Assembly: GCA_030432905.1 (NCBI GenBank)
Contig: JAUILU010000001.1
Location: 372,001 to 436,000, forward strand
Length of the DNA stretch: 64,000 nt
Source of the DNA: Phycisphaerae bacterium
GTDB taxonomy: Bacteria > Planctomycetota > Phycisphaerae > Phycisphaerales > UBA1924
Direction of reading: 5' to 3'
The notes under the pieces: generated by a model
The model's input: only the letters and a program-made list of their open reading frames with translations
Told to the model about the DNA's origin: nothing
Databases searched by the model: none
In this document: piece after piece, positions 4,537 to 16,099 of the stretch
Position numbering within the stretch: position 1 is the first letter of the stretch
How the letters are laid out: each line of letters begins with the position of its first letter
Program-made: the position numbers and the translations under genes

Positions 4537-5499
4537 TTAGTCGATCGTCTGCAGGAATACAGAGCGATCCTTCTTGTGAGCATTGATGCTCTGCGGGTTG
4601 CCTCTCAGGTCGGGGCGCGTATCTGTGGATGAAAAGAAGAGATCATGGATCGAGATCGTGATCCCCTTGTATTCCTGCTGGTTCTTCAGGAACTCGGCGT
4701 GCCCATCTGAGAAGACGAAATTGCCGCCCTCGTCACCGAAGGTGTCAAACTCGGAGTAGAAACCGGGTGTCGTACCAGCAGAAGTCGCCAGCGACGAAGA
4801 AGCCGAGTTGGTGCCGCCTCCGTACCAAGCAGAGGTGCCGATATCCGGGCCAGCAGTCTCGGTTCCCCAGAGCGGGACAGGGTATGTCACAGCTGGTTCA
4901 ACAGCCCTCAGCCCAGAGAGGTAGAGGTAGCTGATGTTGTACGAGATCACCTCGAACTCACTGCCCGGGGGCTGAGGCCTGACAGGACGGCCCTGATCGA
5001 TCGAAGAGATGGTCGAAGGATTGATGATGGGCGGGCCGTGGTAGTCGTAGTCTTCTTTCTGCGCTGGCGAAGTCAGCACCTCGAGCGAATCAACATAGGT
5101 AGACATGATCGGGGTCTTGCTGCCCGCCCAGTTCCGTGAATCGTCAGGCGACCCACCAAGACGCGACCACCCTTCGGGCGAGTCGATGGTGCCGTCCTGT
5201 GTGCCGACCTGCCAGTGACTGAAGAGCCCGGCCACGCCGCCCATCTTGTGCTGATCGCCAAAGACGTTCGCGTTGTTGCCCGGAGTCGGAAGCACAGGGA
5301 ACCAGTCTTTGTGGTCGTTTGCGTAGAGCGTCATCATGAGGCCCATCGACCGCACGTTTGAAAGATCCGAAGCCTTCCTTGCCGACTCGCGGGCCTTGCC
5401 GAGGGCAGGCAGCAAGATGCCGATCAGCAGCGCGATGATGGCGATGACCACCAAGAGTTCAATAAGAGTGAAGCCCTGGGCAGAGTGATGCTTCTTCAT
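4537..5499 (-). CDS. Prepilin-type N-terminal cleavage/methylation domain protein (planctomycete pseudopilin, H-X9-DG-like C-terminus)
   Basis: [43 protein letters not shown]-terminal [14 protein letters not shown]. Start moved from the ORF-track 5631 to ATG 5499. Confidence 0.88.
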
Positions 5500-5604: not shown

Positions 5605-7617
5605 ATGTATCATGCTATACGAATTCTTCAAGGAGTGGCCATGATTTCTATGTGTCTATCGGCCTTTTTGGCCCCGGCTGTTCTCCATTCAAACACCGTG
5701 GTATACAAACCCCGTTGTATACAACCCGAATTCACAATCGTGCATAAACAGACTCGGCTCGTGGACATCGTCATGCCCAATCAGGGCGATGTGGTAGAGC
5801 GGTCAACACAGGCCCGCAGCGTGTCGGCGCCGATCGATGGATCACAGATCCGGCTCATGCTCGACATGGATGAACAGATCCGGATTCGCTCTACCGATGG
5901 CCGAGCCACAGAGTGGAGCGATCCGTTCAAGCAGCATGCCCCAGAACCCGAAGCCGAGCAGACCCCGTCATGGGCCCTCGGGGCGGTCTGGTACAACATC
6001 TTCCCCGAGCGATTCGACAACGCCGAGCCTCGCAACGATCAAGGCTGGCCCCACGGCACACCAATCGGCTGGCAAGACAACTGGTTCACGGTCACCCCAG
6101 ACGAGTTCGAAGCCTCAGCGAATCGCGCCATCGCATCACCCAGACGCTACCGGGACGACCACGAACGAGACCGACAGCCGCTTCATGACGTCGTGTTCGA
6201 GCGCCGGTTCGGCGGAGATATCCAGGGCATTCAGCGGCGCCTCGGCCACGTCGAATCACTCGGAGCGACAGCAATCTGGCTCTGCCCAGTGTTCGATGCG
6301 GTCAGCCTGCACAAGTACGACGCGACCGATCACCGTCACATCGATCCAAACCTCGGCTGGCCCGGCAAGGTCCCGCCGAACGCGCGTCAAGAATTCACTC
6401 AGGACCATAACCACTGGGACTGGACACCCGCGGACTTGGCATTCGTTGACGGGCTGATTCCAGCGGTGCACGAACGGCAGATGAAACTCATAATCGACGG
6501 CGTGTGGAACCACGTCGGAACAGCCCACCCGGCCTTTCAGAACGCGCTCGAACAAGGTGCGGCGAGTCCTTACAGCGACTGGTTTGATCTACACTACGAT
6601 GGTTCGGGGCGTGTCACTGCTTGGCGTGCATGGGACAGAAGGAACGGCAATTTACCCGCTTTTTCTCAGAGAATGGGCGATCTTGTGGCCGGACCGAAGC
6701 GCCACGTTTTTGACGTGACCAGCCGATGGATGGACCCGAACGGCGACGGGGATCCGTCAGACGGCATCGACGGCTGGCGGCTCGATGTTGCTAACGAAGT
6801 CGGTATGGCGTTCTGGAAAGACTGGCGCAGCCACGTTCGATCGATCAACCCAGATACTGTGCTTTTCGGCGAACTCTGGTTCGACGGCGAGGACTACTTC
6901 GGCGGCAAGGCGTTCGATGCGCAGATGAACTACCCGGTCGCGTTTGCTCTGCTGCCCTGGCTCTCGGGTGAACCGAATGCAGAGATTGCTGAAGACGTGA
7001 CCAAGGCACTCGATCACCATCCGGCGACGGTGCTGACGCAGATGAACTTGCTCGCATCTCACGACACAGCCCGACTCGTTTCTCTCCTTGCCAACCCCGG
7101 GCTTGAGTATGACCAAGGTGCAGGACTTGGCGCCGAAGACTTCGACCGGTCAAAGCCAAACCCAGAGAGCTTCGACCGGCTCGAACTCGCGTATGCAGTG
7201 CTGACGGCGCTACCCGGCTCGCCCATGGTCTTTGCTGGCGATGAACTCGGCGTGTGGGGCGCGGATGATCCGGAGAATCGGAAACCATTGCCCTGGCCCG
7301 ATCTCACGGGTGACCCGAGGGAAGCCGAGTTGGCACTGCGTACGACCGACAGGATTTCTCGCTGGCTCCGGCTGCGATCAGACCCAATCGTCGGCGATGT
7401 CCTCCGATACGGCGGCTGGAGATTGTCAACAGTGCAGGACATTCTGGTCATCGAGCGCGATCTCAACGGACAACGGGTTCGGTTGTACGCCAATCCGTTA
7501 AGGTTGCGCAAAGAGACTGATATCGGTCCTGTATGGCCGTGCTCAGCTCGGCTTGTTGTGCTCAACGAATCAGGAGACTGGGTCGATATTCACGGACCGT
7601 CCGAGAAGCCAGGGTGA
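5605..7617 (+). CDS. GH13 family alpha-glucan hydrolase (cyclomaltodextrinase/neopullulanase-like)
   Basis: GH13 motifs: [34 protein letters not shown]. Start uncertain: 5605, 5641 or 5773. Confidence 0.88.
5701..5724. promoter_or_regulatory. Tandem GTATAC palindromes (GGTATACAAACCCCGTTGTATACAACCCG), putative operator of the GH13 gene
   Basis: GTATACAA at 5701 and TTGTATACAA at 5715-5724; same core found upstream of the genes starting at 7778 and 10999. Confidence 0.5.
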
Positions 7618-7642
7618 GCCCTAGGTGTTCGCCGTAAGTCCC

Positions 7643-7660
7643 TGTATACAGCTGTATTTT
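7643..7660. promoter_or_regulatory. TGTATACA palindrome plus degenerate repeat (CTGTATACAGCTGTATTTT), putative operator
   Basis: TGTATACA at 7643-7650, 128-135 bp upstream of ATG 7778. Confidence 0.5.
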
Positions 7661-7777
7661 CGTTCCCATTGATGCGCCCGCGTCGACTATGATGTGGGAG
7701 TGAAAAACCGCGTTTTCGCGGGGAGTTGTAGTAGAACCAGGAGGGGCTCGCGAAAGCGATCTCGGGAGATGATTACG

Positions 7778-9925
7778 ATGAAGACTTCGATATCTGCGGC
7801 GATGCTCGCGATGCTTTGCGGCCAAGCCATGGGCCAGGTCACTGTTGACGGCCAGATCGACGGGAGCGAGTCCTCGCTCTACACACGCGCGTGGGTTCAG
7901 AACCAGCCGACCAGTTTCGGCGACAACCTGCCGCAGACCGGCGAGCCAGAAGACAACTCCGACGCGGTCAACGTCACCACGGGTCTCGAGGTGCGCATCC
8001 CGCTCTCGAACTTCTCGCTCAGTGACGCGATCCCGACCGGCCAGATCCGCATTGCAGGCTGGGTCATCAGCTCGGGCAACGACTTCATGTCCAACCAGGT
8101 CATCGGCGGCCTTGGTGGCCCGGGTGCCAACCTCGGTGATCCTGCGATCGTCAATTTCAAAGCCCCAAGCGGCTCAAACCCCAGCGGCGTTCCCGGTGAC
8201 CAGTTTGCGATCGTTCCGGCTGGCGTCGTCTCCGGCGCACTGACCATCGACGGTACAGCCGACGGTGCATACGGCGCCCCCATCTTTGTCAGCGATACAG
8301 GCACCGGCTTCGGCGACGCCGGCGACCCGGACGCGGTTCTCACCGGCGGCGGCTCGGAGATCTCCAACCTGTACGCGACGCTCGCAGATGAAGACTCCGA
8401 CGGCAACGCGGACGCCCTGTACGTCCTTGTCGGCGGCAACCTCGAAGAGAACTTCAACAAACTCCACCTCTGGTTCGATGTCGATGCCGACGCGGGTTCG
8501 CCCGCGGGCCAGAACGTTGTCCGCGATGACAACGTTGACATCAACTTCAACGCCATCAACCGCCAGGCAGGACTCGAGTTCGACGACGGCTTCACCGGCG
8601 ATTTCATGTTCATCTACGGCTTCGGCGATACCGGCGGCCAGTTCGAGTCGTTCGCCGACTTCGCGAGCACTCCGACCGACGGCGGCGGCATGGGTGCGTT
8701 CATCGGTGCAGGCACACCAGTCCTGCTCACCTCGACCGTTGGGTCGGGTCTCGGTGAAGGCATCACCGCTTCAGTCGATAACTCCAACGTCGGCGGCGTC
8801 GGTCCTTCAGGCTTCTCGCCGACCCTCCCTGACCGCGATGTCGCGCTCGGCTCGGAACTCGACGCGGTTTACACCTACGTCGATGTCCCCAACAACAGAC
8901 TCAATGTTCTGTTCGCCGGCAACCTGCAATCCAACAACAACCGCCTTGTGATCTTCCTCGACGGCGATCCCACTGACGGTCAGAACACGCTCCGCAACGA
9001 CAACATCGACATCGCGTTCAACACACTCGACCGCATGGGCACCAACGACGGCACCGACCCGAACGATGTCGAACCGGAAGGTCCCGGCCTGACCTTCGAC
9101 ACTGACTTCAACGCCGACTACGTCGTAATCGTCAACAACAACGGCGAGACCGGCAGCACCAACACGTTCTTCTCCAACGCCGCTGTCCTCCGCCTCAACG
9201 GCCCGAACATCATCCAGGGCTTCAACACCGACTTCGGCGCCTACGACGGCGGCCTCAAGTCCGCTCCGGGCAACGACCCGATCCTCTTCGACGGCGATGT
9301 GCCCCCGACTGGCGTCGATGTCGAGCCGGGCACCGGTGAGGACATCTTCACCAACTTTGCCCCGCGCGACGCGGCTGCGGCGTTCCTCGCCAACGGCGTA
9401 CTCGGCTTCGAGACACCGAACCTGCTGCAACTCGCACTGGATAACAACAACATCGGCGGCGTCTCCGACGTGGCCGGCGGCGATGTCAGCGACGCGTGCA
9501 ACGTCACGACCGGTGTTGAACTGAGCATCGATCTCGACGAACTCGGCTGGGACAACGCCACACCGATCAAGATCGCGGCGATGATCACCAGCGGCGACAG
9601 CGGCTTTGTCTCTAACCAAGTCGCAGGCGGCCTGCCGAGCGACGCAGAGCTCGGCGAAGTCCGCGACATCGACTTCTCGATGATCGCTGGTACGCAGTAC
9701 GTCACCGTCGGGGACACCGGCGATTGCAGCGCGGCCCGCCTCTGTGCTGACCAGAACAACGACGGCCTTGTGACGCCGACCGACTTCTCGGCATGGATCG
9801 GCAACTACAACGCCAACAGCCTCATCGCCGACGTCAACCAAGACGGCATGGTCACACCGACCGACTTCTCCGCCTGGGTTGGTGCGTTCAACCAGGGCGC
9901 CAATGGCCCGACCTGCATGCCGTAA
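7778..9925 (+). CDS. Secreted multi-module protein (DOMON/carbohydrate-binding-like repeats) with C-terminal dockerin-like duplication
   Basis: Signal peptide MKTSISAAMLAMLCGQAMGQ; repeated SNQVIGG and FDxDxxxGQNxLRxDNxDxxFN modules; C-terminus DQNNDGLVTPTDFSAWIGNYN...DVNQDGMVTPTDFSAWVGAFN. Confidence 0.8.
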   Translation: MKTSISAAMLAMLCGQAMGQVTVDGQIDGSESSLYTRAWVQNQPTSFGDNLPQTGEPEDNSDAVNVTTGLEVRIPLSNFSLSDAIPTGQIRIAGWVISSGNDFMSNQVIGGLGGPGANLGDPAIVNFKAPSGSNPSGVPGDQFAIVPAGVVSGALTIDGTADGAYGAPIFVSDTGTGFGDAGDPDAVLTGGGSEISNLYATLADEDSDGNADALYVLVGGNLEENFNKLHLWFDVDADAGSPAGQNVVRDDNVDINFNAINRQAGLEFDDGFTGDFMFIYGFGDTGGQFESFADFASTPTDGGGMGAFIGAGTPVLLTSTVGSGLGEGITASVDNSNVGGVGPSGFSPTLPDRDVALGSELDAVYTYVDVPNNRLNVLFAGNLQSNNNRLVIFLDGDPTDGQNTLRNDNIDIAFNTLDRMGTNDGTDPNDVEPEGPGLTFDTDFNADYVVIVNNNGETGSTNTFFSNAAVLRLNGPNIIQGFNTDFGAYDGGLKSAPGNDPILFDGDVPPTGVDVEPGTGEDIFTNFAPRDAAAAFLANGVLGFETPNLLQLALDNNNIGGVSDVAGGDVSDACNVTTGVELSIDLDELGWDNATPIKIAAMITSGDSGFVSNQVAGGLPSDAELGEVRDIDFSMIAGTQYVTVGDTGDCSAARLCADQNNDGLVTPTDFSAWIGNYNANSLIADVNQDGMVTPTDFSAWVGAFNQGANGPTCMP

Positions 9926-9970
9926 TCACGCAAGCTCCTCCGGGAGCAGCAGACAACTCAAGTACACACA

Positions 9971-9999
9971 GCGGCTCCGCATTGCGGGGCCGCTTTTTT
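9971..9999 (+). terminator. Rho-independent terminator
   Basis: GCGGCTCCGC-ATT-GCGGGGCCGC-TTTTTT. Confidence 0.85.
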
Positions 10000-10045
10000 G
10001 CGCCCATGCCTCTGACATCCGCGAGCGAATCGGCGAACAAGCAAA

Positions 10046-10083
10046 TAGAAAAGGGGACGGCCCATGCAAGCCGTCCCCTTTGG
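10046..10083 (-). terminator. Rho-independent terminator for the 10106-10999 gene
   Basis: Minus strand AAAGGGGACGGC-TTGCATGG-GCCGTCCCCTTTTCTATTT. Confidence 0.8.
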
Positions 10084-10105
10084 GAGTGATGAAAGTGTGT
10101 AAGAC

Positions 10106-10999
10106 TTAGCGGCGGCGACGAGTCGCTGCGATACCGCCCAGACCGAGCAGAACAGCAGAAGCCGGTGCCGGAACCTTGAGGGTGACGAATTGGTCACCGG
10201 CGAGGTTGTTGAAATCGATACCGGCGAGGCTGCCGTCGATGAAGTTGCCCATCATGTCGTTGCCGAGGCTGCCAGTGCCAGCCGGAGCGCCGCCAATGAT
10301 CTGGTTCGAGACGTAGTCGTGCGACCCGCCGTTGATGAAACCAGCAAGGCGGAGCAAGCCGCCTGTGTAGCCGAGTTCTGAGAGCGGAATGGCGATCTCG
10401 GTACCGGTCGAAACGAGTGCGGGGTCCGAATCATTCGGGTTGCCGAAGTCAGCGACGCCGCCCACGTTGGACTGGTTTGTGCCGAGTGTGTAACCGTTGC
10501 CGTTGGCACCGCCTGCAGCGATCTGGTCGCCGTCAACGTAGGCGCCGCCGCCCTGGAAGCCACCGGGGCCGCCTCCTGCGGAGTTGAGCTGGGCAGCACT
10601 GGTGTAGTGCTCATTCCGGTCACCGTTGACGGTGTATGTGAGGTAGTAGTCGGCCTCGAAGCCCGAATCGAAAGTCAGGCCGCCGAGCTTGTCGTTGAGC
10701 TGGTTAAAGTCAACGTCGGCGTTATCGTTCCGGAGTGAGTTCTGGCCGCCCGCGGTCGAGTCGAAGAACAACTCAAGCTTGTTGAAGTCCTGAACGTTGC
10801 CCGTAACACCGAGGTACAGGTTGTTGGTGTCGCAGTAGGCCCAGATGCCGTTGATCTCGCTGCGGTTGTTGCCGAAGGTCGTGCCTTCGTTGTTCGACCA
10901 GATCAGCTGGTAGTCGGTTTCGACGATCTGGCCGTCGATAACCTGACCCATAGCCGAGCCGGACAGCCCAATGAGGGCCATAGCGCAAATATTCTTCAT
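10106..10999 (-). CDS. Secreted protein related to the 7778-9925 modules, with PEP-CTERM-like sorting tail
   Basis: Signal peptide MKNICAMALIGLSGSAMGQ; NKLELFFDSTAGGQNSLRNDNADVDFN and GGSHDYVSNQIIGG shared with 7778-9925; tail VPAPASAVLLGLGGIAATRRRR. Confidence 0.82.
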   Translation of the reverse strand: MKNICAMALIGLSGSAMGQVIDGQIVETDYQLIWSNNEGTTFGNNRSEINGIWAYCDTNNLYLGVTGNVQDFNKLELFFDSTAGGQNSLRNDNADVDFNQLNDKLGGLTFDSGFEADYYLTYTVNGDRNEHYTSAAQLNSAGGGPGGFQGGGAYVDGDQIAAGGANGNGYTLGTNQSNVGGVADFGNPNDSDPALVSTGTEIAIPLSELGYTGGLLRLAGFINGGSHDYVSNQIIGGAPAGTGSLGNDMMGNFIDGSLAGIDFNNLAGDQFVTLKVPAPASAVLLGLGGIAATRRRR

Positions 11000-11115
11000 G
11001 TGTTATCTCTCCCTGGTTACCCATGTAAATACCACCCGGTTCCCGCCGGGATGGCTGTGTCTCTTCCGTTAAGAGTGTACAAGGTTGCCAGCCGTGGGTG
11101 AATCAGGAAAAGGGC

Positions 11116-11145
11116 TGTATACACGATTTCATGGCGCTGTATACA
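11116..11145. promoter_or_regulatory. Two direct CTGTATACA palindromes 22 bp apart, putative operator of the 10106-10999 gene
   Basis: CTGTATACACGATTTCATGGCGCTGTATACAG; GTATAC cores at 11117 and 11139, 118-145 bp upstream of the 10999 start. Confidence 0.55.
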
Positions 11146-11147
11146 GC

Positions 11148-12032
11148 CTAAATCTTCGTGGTATTCTTCTCGGACCCGACGTACGAGGACGTAGCCTCTC
11201 GCTTGACCACCAGCTCAACTAGTTTCTCAGGCGGATCGGCACTGGTTTGCGATTGCGGCTGGCACTGCCGGCACATGATGACCGGCTCTCCCCCAACTTC
11301 ACAGCCGACCCTGCCATCGACACGGAACACCGATTCGAATATGCGCGGGCAGAGCACTTCGCTTGGCAGGCCATCGGCAGCGACGACCCCCTCGTGGATC
11401 ACGACGACTCGCTTAAAGAACCTCAGCGCGAGATCCAAGTCATGCAGCACACACACCACCGTGCGTTGCTTGGCTGAGTTGAGCTCCTGGAGCAGATGCA
11501 ACAAGCCAAGTTGGTGCTCGATATCTAAACCAGTCAGTGGCTCATCGAGCAAGAGGTGATCCGGATCCTGTGCCAGAAGCGTGGCGAGGCGGACGCGTTG
11601 TCGTTCGCCGCCTGAGAGATTCTCCATCCGGCGTTTGGCGAGGTGAGTCACCTCGCACGTCTGCATTGCGTCGCGGACAGCTTCCGTGTCGGTGTGCGTC
11701 CAGCGTGACAGGAACGAACGCTTGGAGTGACGCCCGAGCCCAACATGCTCTTCGACGGTGGTCAGACTCGGAGGCTCGGCGGTCTGTGTCAGCAGGCCCA
11801 ACTTGCCAGCGCGTGTCCGCGGCGGCATCGCGGTCACCGCTTGGTCATTGATGGTCGCGCTGCCAGAAGTCGGCTTAAGCAGCCCCGCGAGCGTGCGGAC
11901 AAGCGTGGACTTGCCCGAGCCATTGGGCCCGACAACCGCGACGATCTCGCCGGTCTGGATCGTCAGATCAACCCCGCGGAGTATCTCCGTTGGACCGAAG
12001 CTGACTCGGAGTTTGTCGGCCGCGATGGTCAT
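11148..12032 (-). CDS. FecE/FhuC-type ABC transporter ATP-binding protein
   Basis: GPNGSGKSTLVRTLAGLL, LSGGERQRVRLATLLAQDPDHLLLDEPLTGLD. Confidence 0.92.
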   Translation of the reverse strand: MTIAADKLRVSFGPTEILRGVDLTIQTGEIVAVVGPNGSGKSTLVRTLAGLLKPTSGSATINDQAVTAMPPRTRAGKLGLLTQTAEPPSLTTVEEHVGLGRHSKRSFLSRWTHTDTEAVRDAMQTCEVTHLAKRRMENLSGGERQRVRLATLLAQDPDHLLLDEPLTGLDIEHQLGLLHLLQELNSAKQRTVVCVLHDLDLALRFFKRVVVIHEGVVAADGLPSEVLCPRIFESVFRVDGRVGCEVGGEPVIMCRQCQPQSQTSADPPEKLVELVVKREATSSYVGSEKNTTKI

Positions 12033-13063
12033 CGGAGCCAGCCCGATCGATAAAGCAAGTAGATGAAGTACGGCCCACCGATGAGCCCAGTGACAACACC
12101 GACGGGCAGTTCACTCGGCGCGAGAACGGTGCGTGCAAGCAGATCGGACCAGAGCAGAACAGATGCGCCCGCGAACGCTGAAACGGGGAGGACGAAACGG
12201 TTCGTGCCGAGCACGAGGCGTACGAGGTGCGGCACAACTAGGCCTATGAAACCAACTAAACCCGCGACACTCGCAGCAGATCCCGCAAGCAGCGAAGCCG
12301 CAGCGAACGCGATGAGCCTCGTGCGCTCTACACGGACTCCCATGGTTGAAGCCGCGTCGTCACCGAGTTCGAGCACACGCATACTCCGGTGGAGCGACAT
12401 CGCCATGACCATGCCGACGATGGAATAGGGCAGCATGAGTCTGAGGTGCTGCCAGCCCCGGCCGTTGAAGGAACCGGTGGTCCAGAACATGACAGCAGGG
12501 ATGCGGTCAGCGAACGCGGTGATGAGCAGCCCGATGATCGCGCCGAGGATCGCGTTCACTGCAACGCCTGCGAGGATCATGCGCACAGGTGACGCTCCCC
12601 CGCCTGGTCGCCAAGACACGGCATAGACAAAGACCGCGGAGACCATCGCCCCGATGAACGCGGCGATCGGAAGCAGCACCGCGACCCCTGGCAGCACAGC
12701 GAGCACAACCGTTGCCGCCATGCCCGCGCCGGCGGTGATGCCGATCAGCCCCGGATCAGCGAGCGGGTTCCGCGTCACGCTCTGAAGCAGCACGCCCGAA
12801 ACCGCGAGGTTACAACCAGCGAGAACCGCGCACAACGCTCGTGGGAGTCTTGCATCAAGCACAATCCGGCGGGTGGTCTCGGCTGCATCACCCGCGAACA
12901 CAGCCAGCACCTCGGCGACCGATATATCAACCGCTCCGAGCGCAAGCGACGCCAGCAGGCCCGCGATAATCGACACGCCGACCACGCACGCGCCGATCTT
13001 CAGTCGAAGCGCATTCGGGCTGGATGCTTCCAGCTCGGATTGGTTCGCGGCAAGCGTGGTCAA
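12029..13063 (-). CDS. FecCD-family ABC transporter permease (iron/heme/siderophore type)
   Basis: RLPRALCAVLAGCNLAVSGVLLQSVTRNPLADPGLIGITAGAG is diagnostic of FecCD/BtuC permeases; overlaps its neighbours. Confidence 0.94.
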   Translation of the reverse strand: MTTLAANQSELEASSPNALRLKIGACVVGVSIIAGLLASLALGAVDISVAEVLAVFAGDAAETTRRIVLDARLPRALCAVLAGCNLAVSGVLLQSVTRNPLADPGLIGITAGAGMAATVVLAVLPGVAVLLPIAAFIGAMVSAVFVYAVSWRPGGGASPVRMILAGVAVNAILGAIIGLLITAFADRIPAVMFWTTGSFNGRGWQHLRLMLPYSIVGMVMAMSLHRSMRVLELGDDAASTMGVRVERTRLIAFAAASLLAGSAASVAGLVGFIGLVVPHLVRLVLGTNRFVLPVSAFAGASVLLWSDLLARTVLAPSELPVGVVTGLIGGPYFIYLLYRSGWLR

Positions 13064-13986
13064 GGAAGCTTGGACCTCGCCTCGTCGATAATGCCCCGGA
13101 TCTCGGCGATGGCGCGAGGCAGCTCGGAGCCGGGACGCATCGCGTAAAGATCATCCTTCAGGAACGTGACATGGTTGCCCTTAACCGCTGAGAGTTCACT
13201 CCAAAGCGCATCGCGTTGGAGCATCGCTCGCGCTGATTCCTCAGCACCGTGGAAGATCACGAGCAGATGATCAGGGTCGCGATCGATGACGGCTTCCATG
13301 CTCAGTGGTGCAAGCCCGCGGAACACCCCGTGGGTTTCCATGTCGTCGGTGATCATCACACCACCGGCGCTTGCGACGAGATTGCCGAGGTAGCTGCTCG
13401 GCAAGAACGCGTAGAACGCGTGCGGGGTGCCGAACACAGCGAGCACACTGACTGGCTCAGCGTCTTCAGCAGGAGCCGAGATACTCGCGCGTACCGAATC
13501 AGCCAGTTCACTCGCGGCTTCGGTCGTATCAACAAGTTCGCCGAGTGTCTCGATGTGCTTCGTCACGTCGGCGATCGTGTCAACGTCCATCGTGACGATC
13601 TTGGCGCCGGTGGATTGCTCGATCGCGGGCATGAACTGGGCGTAGACGCTGGTTGTCACGACCACGTCAGGTGAAGCCGCCATGAGTTGTTCAAGGTTTG
13701 GCCCCGCGGAGTGGTCAACGGTGATCGCAGGGATGCCCTCCCAGGTGGGCGGGATGTCGCCTCTTAAGAGCGGGACAGCGACCGGGGTAACGCCCATCTC
13801 GATGAGTTGATCAGCCGCGAAAGGCAGCAGCGTCGCAACTCGGATGGTTTCCGATGCTTCCGAAGTTGTCGCTGTGGTGTCGGTCGTTGGCGCATTTGAA
13901 TCTTTGCCGCTGTCACAGGCGGCAAGACTCAACGAGACGACGAGACCCACTGAGAGTGTCGTAAGTCGATTGATCTTTGCTGACAT
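13060..13986 (-). CDS. ABC transporter substrate-binding lipoprotein (periplasmic binding protein type 2, FepB/FecB-like)
   Basis: Lipobox VSLSLAACDS; ASPDVVVTTSVYAQFMPAIEQSTGAKIVTMDVDTIADV; operonic with the FecCD permease. Confidence 0.9.
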   Translation of the reverse strand: MSAKINRLTTLSVGLVVSLSLAACDSGKDSNAPTTDTTATTSEASETIRVATLLPFAADQLIEMGVTPVAVPLLRGDIPPTWEGIPAITVDHSAGPNLEQLMAASPDVVVTTSVYAQFMPAIEQSTGAKIVTMDVDTIADVTKHIETLGELVDTTEAASELADSVRASISAPAEDAEPVSVLAVFGTPHAFYAFLPSSYLGNLVASAGGVMITDDMETHGVFRGLAPLSMEAVIDRDPDHLLVIFHGAEESARAMLQRDALWSELSAVKGNHVTFLKDDLYAMRPGSELPRAIAEIRGIIDEARSKLP

Positions 13987-15346: not shown

Positions 15347-16099
15347 ATGCCCACAACAGTTGCCAAATTTGCACTGCCGATTCTTGCCAGCACTATCTGC
15401 TCCCAGGCAAGTGCACAGTTCGTAACCCCCGATGGCTACGGCTGGATCCGCGGGACCACAAACACGGTCTGGGGAGAATGGGACGATTTCTCCTCCGCCT
15501 CCGGCCCGAACACACCCGACGTCGGAACATTCCCTGCCCCGCTACCCGCTGGATGGGATGAACTCGCGGCGACCTGCATCACTCCTTCGGCCTTCCTGAC
15601 CTCTACGGGGAACATCTACTCGTTCAGCGAGCCGATAGAATTTGAGATCGTGGTACCCAGCTATGACTTGTCAGGCAGCACGACGACGATCCTGCTTCAG
15701 ACACGCACACTCGGCAGTGAGGTCGATCCGAAAACCGTGACCTGCAACGACTTGCCGCCGGTGGAAGTTGTCGAAACGATGCGAGTCGACGTCGGCCAGG
15801 GATTCCTTGTTCAGACACTCTGGCGTTTCGAAGTAGCCGCAGCCACAAGCCATCTCATCGAGTTTGGCGCGATCGCATCGTCCATGAGCCTCGACGGTCT
15901 TGCTGTCGATACATATACGACACAATCCGCCTGCCTTGCCGACGTCAACGCCGACGGCAGCGTGACCCCCACCGACTTCTCCGCGTGGGTCGCTGCGTTC
16001 AACAACAACCTGCCAGGTTGTGACCAGAACGGCGACGGCGCCTGCTCGCCGACCGACTTCTCGGCATGGATCACAAACTACAACAACGGCTGCCCGTAA
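15347..16099 (+). CDS. Secreted protein with C-terminal dockerin-like duplicated motif
   Basis: MPTTVAKFALPILASTICSQASAQ signal; CLADVNADGSVTPTDFSAWVAAFNNNLPGCDQNGDGACSPTDFSAWITNYNNGCP. Confidence 0.8.
   Translation: MPTTVAKFALPILASTICSQASAQFVTPDGYGWIRGTTNTVWGEWDDFSSASGPNTPDVGTFPAPLPAGWDELAATCITPSAFLTSTGNIYSFSEPIEFEIVVPSYDLSGSTTTILLQTRTLGSEVDPKTVTCNDLPPVEVVETMRVDVGQGFLVQTLWRFEVAAATSHLIEFGAIASSMSLDGLAVDTYTTQSACLADVNADGSVTPTDFSAWVAAFNNNLPGCDQNGDGACSPTDFSAWITNYNNGCP

Follow-up and report, generated by a model that had tools for sequence, protein, structure and literature searches.

A palindrome shared by central-metabolism promoters in a genus of Phycisphaerae is the probable operator of an FCD-type GntR regulator

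Described regulators and the locus in the window

VanR-type FCD regulators of the GntR family are known mainly from local operons. Atu1419 of Agrobacterium fabrum is a VanR-type FCD GntR of known structure (PDB 6z74, 6za0, 6za3, 6za7); it binds ATGTATACAT and was crystallised with this DNA, Arg45 touching the essential G of each half-site (PMC7797058). The candidate regulator considered here resembles Atu1419 in its GntR and FCD architecture, in the 8-bp core common to ATGTATACAT and the palindrome of this study, TGTATACA, and in its DNA-contact residues and FCD histidines, and single palindromes would likewise suffice for binding. Atu1419, however, represses a few hydroxycinnamate-degradation genes, whereas about 38 sites are spread across central metabolism here. 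PmiR of Pseudomonas aeruginosa (PDB 7xp0, 7xp1), also an FCD GntR, is the top PDB sequence match to the candidate regulator; it reportedly responds to an intermediate of the 2-methylcitrate cycle, a ligand which would parallel the propionate-type targets found here. The preliminary description of this DNA had drawn its comparison with UxuR/ExuR, whose operators (TGGTATACCA) have the GTATAC core and the GntR superfamily in common with our system but carry the outer bases GG/CC instead of TG/CA, and Atu1419 on ATGTATACAT is the closer model. Two other GntR genes of the class (L193 and L203) have TGGTATACCA upstream, and the UxuR/ExuR type is therefore seen as a sister specificity. CcpA, Cra/FruR, HexR and GlxR are global carbon regulators, and the proposed regulon is like theirs in that genes for sugar breakdown, glycolysis, the TCA cycle and nitrogen metabolism would answer to a single regulator, and that there are candidates for both repressed and activated promoters. 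They belong to other protein families with other operators, and the candidate GntR is not a member of these.

The window, by which we mean the whole 64-kb stretch of DNA analysed, contains the following features around the palindromes; the genes given as targets are so in the proposed regulon.

4537..5499, minus strand: pilin-like (N_methyl) gene, possible divergent target of site 1
5641..7617, plus strand: GH13 alpha-amylase-family gene, alternative starts 5605 or 5773; target
5700..5707: GGTATACA, one mismatch to TGTATACA, 16 bp from the exact site 1
5701-5724: GTATACAAACCCCGTTGTATACAA, containing exact TGTATACA at 5716-5723
5716..5723: site 1, TGTATACA, 216 bp upstream of the divergent pilin-like gene; probably falls within the GH13 coding sequence, in its 5' part
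7642-7660: CTGTATACAGCTGTATTTT, containing TGTATACA at 7643-7650
7643..7650: site 2, TGTATACA, 127 bp upstream of the 7778 ATG
7688..7693, plus strand: TATGAT, putative -10 of the 7778 gene; the centre of site 2 lies about 41 bp upstream
7778..9925, plus strand: 715-aa secreted protein with a dockerin-like segment at its C-terminus; target
10106..10999, minus strand: secreted PEP-CTERM-like protein of 297 aa; target
11074..11079, minus-strand reading: TACACT, putative -10 of the 10999 gene
11115-11146: CTGTATACA-N13-CTGTATACAG, containing TGTATACA at 11116-11123 and 11138-11145
11116..11123: site 3a, TGTATACA, 116 bp upstream of the 10999 start
11138..11145: site 3b, TGTATACA, 138 bp upstream of the 10999 start, its centre 22 bp from that of 3a

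All palindromic strings reported in the preliminary description are thus present where it had placed them. Four exact copies of TGTATACA occur in the window against 0.06 expected from dinucleotide shuffles, and under a third-order Markov model this sequence ranks first in over-representation among the window's 256 palindromic 8-mers (p = 5e-6; p = 0.009 for the runner-up). Copies with at most one mismatch show a mild excess (11, the exact ones included, against 4.0 expected), and it is possible that GGTATACA forms the second half of a pair with site 1. The two secreted proteins resemble each other in sequence, and the pilin-like gene is followed on its strand by genes for a sugar ABC permease, binding protein and ATPase (4423-440).

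An ABC importer operon of the iron-siderophore/cobalamin type (binding protein, permease and ATPase; 11148-13986, minus strand) terminates 2 bp from the 11138 site. Methylmalonyl-CoA mutase, normally a B12 enzyme, is among the regulon targets, but the TGTATACA sites are downstream of the importer operon and no riboswitch was found in the 64-kb window with Rfam. Many secreted proteins (7778-9925 and 15347-16099 in the window; L020, L034 and L041 elsewhere) end in a common dockerin-like segment, TPTDFSAWIxNYN, possibly an export or anchoring tag, and several of these have TGTATACA upstream.

Distribution and conservation of the sites

The genome-wide scan suggested in the preliminary description places the 8-mer well above background, with 38 copies of TGTATACA against 6 of the reversed control ACATATGT. 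Of these 38 sites, 28 are intergenic and at most 250 bp upstream of a gene start as called by our own gene caller, where 5.6% would be expected (p = 2e-27), and the same intergenic, start-proximal placement is seen in the related genomes G002, G004 and G001. The paired arrangement that had been taken as the signal is not general, most genomic sites being single.

For the assignment of targets about 12 kb was fetched around every site, genes were called by a simple hexamer model and the neighbours annotated with Pfam. By Pfam, the genes behind the sites include glycoside hydrolases (GH13 amylases, GH31, GH57), phosphoglucose isomerase, UDP-glucose dehydrogenase, central-carbon genes (pyruvate dehydrogenase E1, citrate synthase), acyl-CoA and propionate genes (thiolase, an enoyl-CoA hydratase-like protein, 3-hydroxyacyl-CoA dehydrogenase, methylmalonyl-CoA mutase) and nitrogen genes (glutamate dehydrogenase, type III glutamine synthetase). 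Inorganic pyrophosphatase, cysteine synthase and secreted dockerin- or PEP-CTERM-like proteins also stand behind sites, and the relatives add a class I aldolase, GAPDH and a PrpD-like gene, named by translation alone. The local sugar regulon that had been proposed is therefore too small a description, since the set of sites covers central carbon and nitrogen metabolism.

Across the genomes compared, 34 target groups share a site in two genomes or more, 25 of them in at least three, and at orthologous promoters the distance from site to gene is nearly unchanged in G002 and G004 and often also in the more distant G001. Phylogenetic footprinting, another check proposed at the outset, is well illustrated by site 2, where the 8-mer at 7643 is invariant amid diverged intergenic sequence in these three genomes; the site is present in G475, of another genus, as well. 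The sites 3a and 3b of the 10999 gene have a single counterpart at 133-139 bp in G002, G004 and G001, and the order of the amylase/GH31, GH13 and secreted-protein sites is unchanged in G002 and G475. Several of the genomes compared are incomplete, and G003 (70% complete, 16 sites against 12 control copies) is of little use for footprinting. The 5716 site has an exact copy at the corresponding place in G002, G001 and G475. Since this site probably belongs to GH13 coding sequence near the 5' end, with the in-frame codons TGT ATA CAA (Cys-Ile-Gln), its conservation may partly reflect the protein level; corresponding codons are present in the same three genomes. Coding constraint may contribute at this site only.

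It could be argued that the regulon is purely local to the sugar cluster, the remaining copies in the genome being due to chance, and sites are indeed most densely clustered at the window locus together with the neighbouring one at C1:370158, an arrangement retained in G475 and partly in G168. The distant sites are, however, equally conserved at orthologous promoters, and the genome count far exceeds the control, which makes a purely local regulon extremely improbable. The window contains a dense cluster of sites of a central-metabolism regulon.

Some other occurrences of TGTATACA differ in arrangement. Two copies abut directly (TGTATACATGTATACA) upstream of a GH57 gene in G002 (L101:4005-4020), where the relatives have a single copy. 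Two copies lie inside one coding sequence of 456 aa in the window's genome (L035); its G002 orthologue (L098) has two intragenic copies at partly different positions, and G003 and G475 have one each.

The candidate regulator and its phylogenetic range

Among 61 relatives, enrichment of TGTATACA is limited to the genus of the window, with site/control counts of 38/6, 21/5, 38/16, 16/12 and 27/7 in its five genomes and a mean of 2.6/2.1 for 32 genera elsewhere in the family. Each genome of the genus has a single strong match to GntR (PF00392) above cut-off, in an unchanged neighbourhood, and in the window's genome it lies outside the window:

C2:74215-74973, minus strand: GntR gene, product of 253 aa

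The product combines an N-terminal GntR winged helix (PF00392; 45.1 bits, cut-off 27) with a C-terminal FCD domain (PF07729; 60.4 bits, cut-off 24.3), in which the metal-binding histidines H144, H189 and H211 are conserved in 26 homologues. The fold is predicted with confidence (pLDDT 85), with six modelled sensor helices (72-95, 103-119, 130-151, 154-169, 179-197 and 201-230) and a low-confidence tail helix, where a VanR-type domain would have six helices and a FadR-type domain seven, and the best structural match of the model is the Atu1419-DNA complex (VanR type) at about 23% identity. The Atu1419 contacts R31, E34, S44, R45, T46 and R49 align with R27, E30, S40, R41, S42 and R45, identical except for T46 to S42, but this conservation alone is weak evidence since the SRxPVREA helix is common in the GntR family. 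If this GntR reads the site, TGTATACA fits the GntR operator form (N)yGT(N)xAC(N)y with x = 2. Homologous FCD-GntR genes of the class have TCTTGTATACAAGA, TGTATACA or TGGTATACCA upstream of themselves. The preliminary description had also proposed a search for a GntR or LacI gene with its own copy of the site; an autoregulatory TGTATACA was looked for at the candidate regulator's gene and was not found.

A second GntR specificity was seen in several families of the class, where the palindrome TTGTCGACAA (mostly ATTGTCGACAAT) lies about 36-73 bp upstream of FCD-GntR genes themselves (L185, L194, L195, L198, L202 and L205). Within the genus the GntR gene stands between genes for a coiled-coil protein and a TauE/SafE-like permease (L155, G000:C2:73273-76455). 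The permease gene also adjoins the GntR gene in G475 (L290); it was not found beside it in G521 or G168, and it might be a clue to the effector.

This canonical FCD-GntR is carried by 8 of 163 genomes of the family, namely all five of the genus and three of the 158 others (G475, G521 and G168); an earlier search at E <= 1e-6 had found none in those other genera of the family that it covered save G168, with a weak match in G025. Enrichment in G475 and G521 was forecast, and the forecast recorded, before their sites were counted, while G168 had been counted earlier. In G475, which has a close orthologue of the regulator, 26 sites were found against 0 control copies, and 13 of the 26 are upstream of orthologues of known targets, 11 clearly so; of the two doubtful cases, one matches a glutamate dehydrogenase paralogue at 40% identity and the other a secreted protein of the dockerin type. 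The forecast enrichment was absent in G521, where the orthologue is diverged (37% identity) and 4 sites were counted against 2, one of them at glutamate dehydrogenase as in the genus of the window. G168 has 7 sites against 1, of which one precedes the orthologous amylase by 129-189 bp and another is beside the orthologous sugar-ABC/pilin-like/secreted-protein locus. The sites thus track the regulator, strongly for the close orthologue and weakly for the diverged ones, and distant FCD-GntR carriers in the order and class have TGTATACA counts without enrichment. The p value of 8e-5 from a rank test overstates the independence of the data, because the carriers are few and related, and its support comes from about two clades.

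Readers of two other families were tried and rejected. No LacI match was found in G001 (96% complete, 21 sites) or G003 (70% complete), and TetR genes occur in every relative searched, so that their range is unrestricted. The regulon may be real and yet read by another transcription factor of the same lineages, the co-occurrence with the GntR being coincidental. One genus amounts to one evolutionary event, only LacI and TetR were screened as alternatives, the GntR gene itself is without TGTATACA, and G521 has an orthologue without enrichment. Against this, the operator agrees with the DNA bound by Atu1419, the closest structural homologue solved in complex with DNA, and the enrichment in G475 was as forecast from the presence of the regulator. 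On balance we regard another reader as unlikely. That the operators are shared and served by one regulator outside the window, as first proposed, is very probable from the number of sites and their conservation in relatives, and co-occurrence, the enrichment in G475 and the operator and contacts of Atu1419 together make a reader of the GntR family, also proposed then, the most likely one.

A putative dual-acting regulon

It is thus very probable that TGTATACA serves as the operator throughout a single regulon, genome-wide and of about 30-38 sites, and that its one reader is a VanR-type FCD GntR encoded outside the window. Enrichment, promoter location, conservation, co-occurrence and contact residues were computed, and from these we infer binding; the direction of control and the effector are proposals of the same kind. 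In a GntR dimer each recognition helix (SRSPVREA) would sit on one of the two halves of the palindrome, and the regulon would extend over alpha-glucan breakdown, glycolysis, pyruvate dehydrogenase, citrate synthase, acyl-CoA and propionate metabolism, glutamate/glutamine assimilation and secreted proteins.

Conserved -10-like hexamers, putative boxes picked by eye with a loose score, fall into two spacing classes when aligned to the sites. In the first the -10 starts at most about 15 bp from the site centre (citrate synthase, methylmalonyl-CoA mutase, thiolase, pyrophosphatase, cysteine synthase, DegT aminotransferase), and in the second 29-58 bp downstream (the 7778 gene of the window, GH31, GAPDH, aldolase, an MFS transporter, glutamate dehydrogenase). 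The putative -10 of the 7778 gene has the counterparts TACGAT in G002 and G004 and, at equal spacing, TAGAAT in G475, and in the latter genome methylmalonyl-CoA mutase retains the first spacing and the secreted gene the second. A site of the first class would overlap the core promoter, and binding could repress sterically; one of the second class, upstream of the -10, may allow activation. On this spacing, some targets would be repressed and others activated.

The presence of -10-like boxes also bears on whether TGTATACA is itself a promoter element, e.g. an extended -10 (TATACA resembles TATAAT), or a general sequence preference. The 8-mer does contain a -10-like hexamer and certain sites are near start codons, but the full 8-bp palindrome is enriched while its flanking bases are not, separate conserved -10-like boxes stand beside the sites at variable spacing, and sister genera, whose sigma factors are presumably the same, show no enrichment. 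A promoter element is therefore very improbable, and an operator remains the preferred reading.

The effector is likely to be a central carboxylic acid by analogy, a natural guess because regulators of the FadR subfamily bind carboxylic acids (PMC4494728). As in the global carbon regulators, conserved sites are found at sugar-catabolic, glycolytic and TCA genes (GAPDH and aldolase by translation only). Evenly balanced, in our judgement, is the further proposal that a VanR-type FCD GntR has been turned into a dual-acting global regulator of carbon and nitrogen in a few related genera. On this view a glucan-locus core common with the distant genus of G168 would have been extended, in two genera, to genes of glycolysis, the TCA cycle, and propionate and glutamate metabolism. 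No central-metabolism regulon in this kind of bacterium (Planctomycetota) was described in the literature searched, and a search for TTGTATACAA gave unrelated matches only. The finding yields an operator, a candidate regulator, a list of targets and a phylogenetic range with sharp limits (8 of 163 genomes of the family). With the regulator absent from nearly all sister genera, and the sites absent where tested, the birth of a global regulon would here be open to study.
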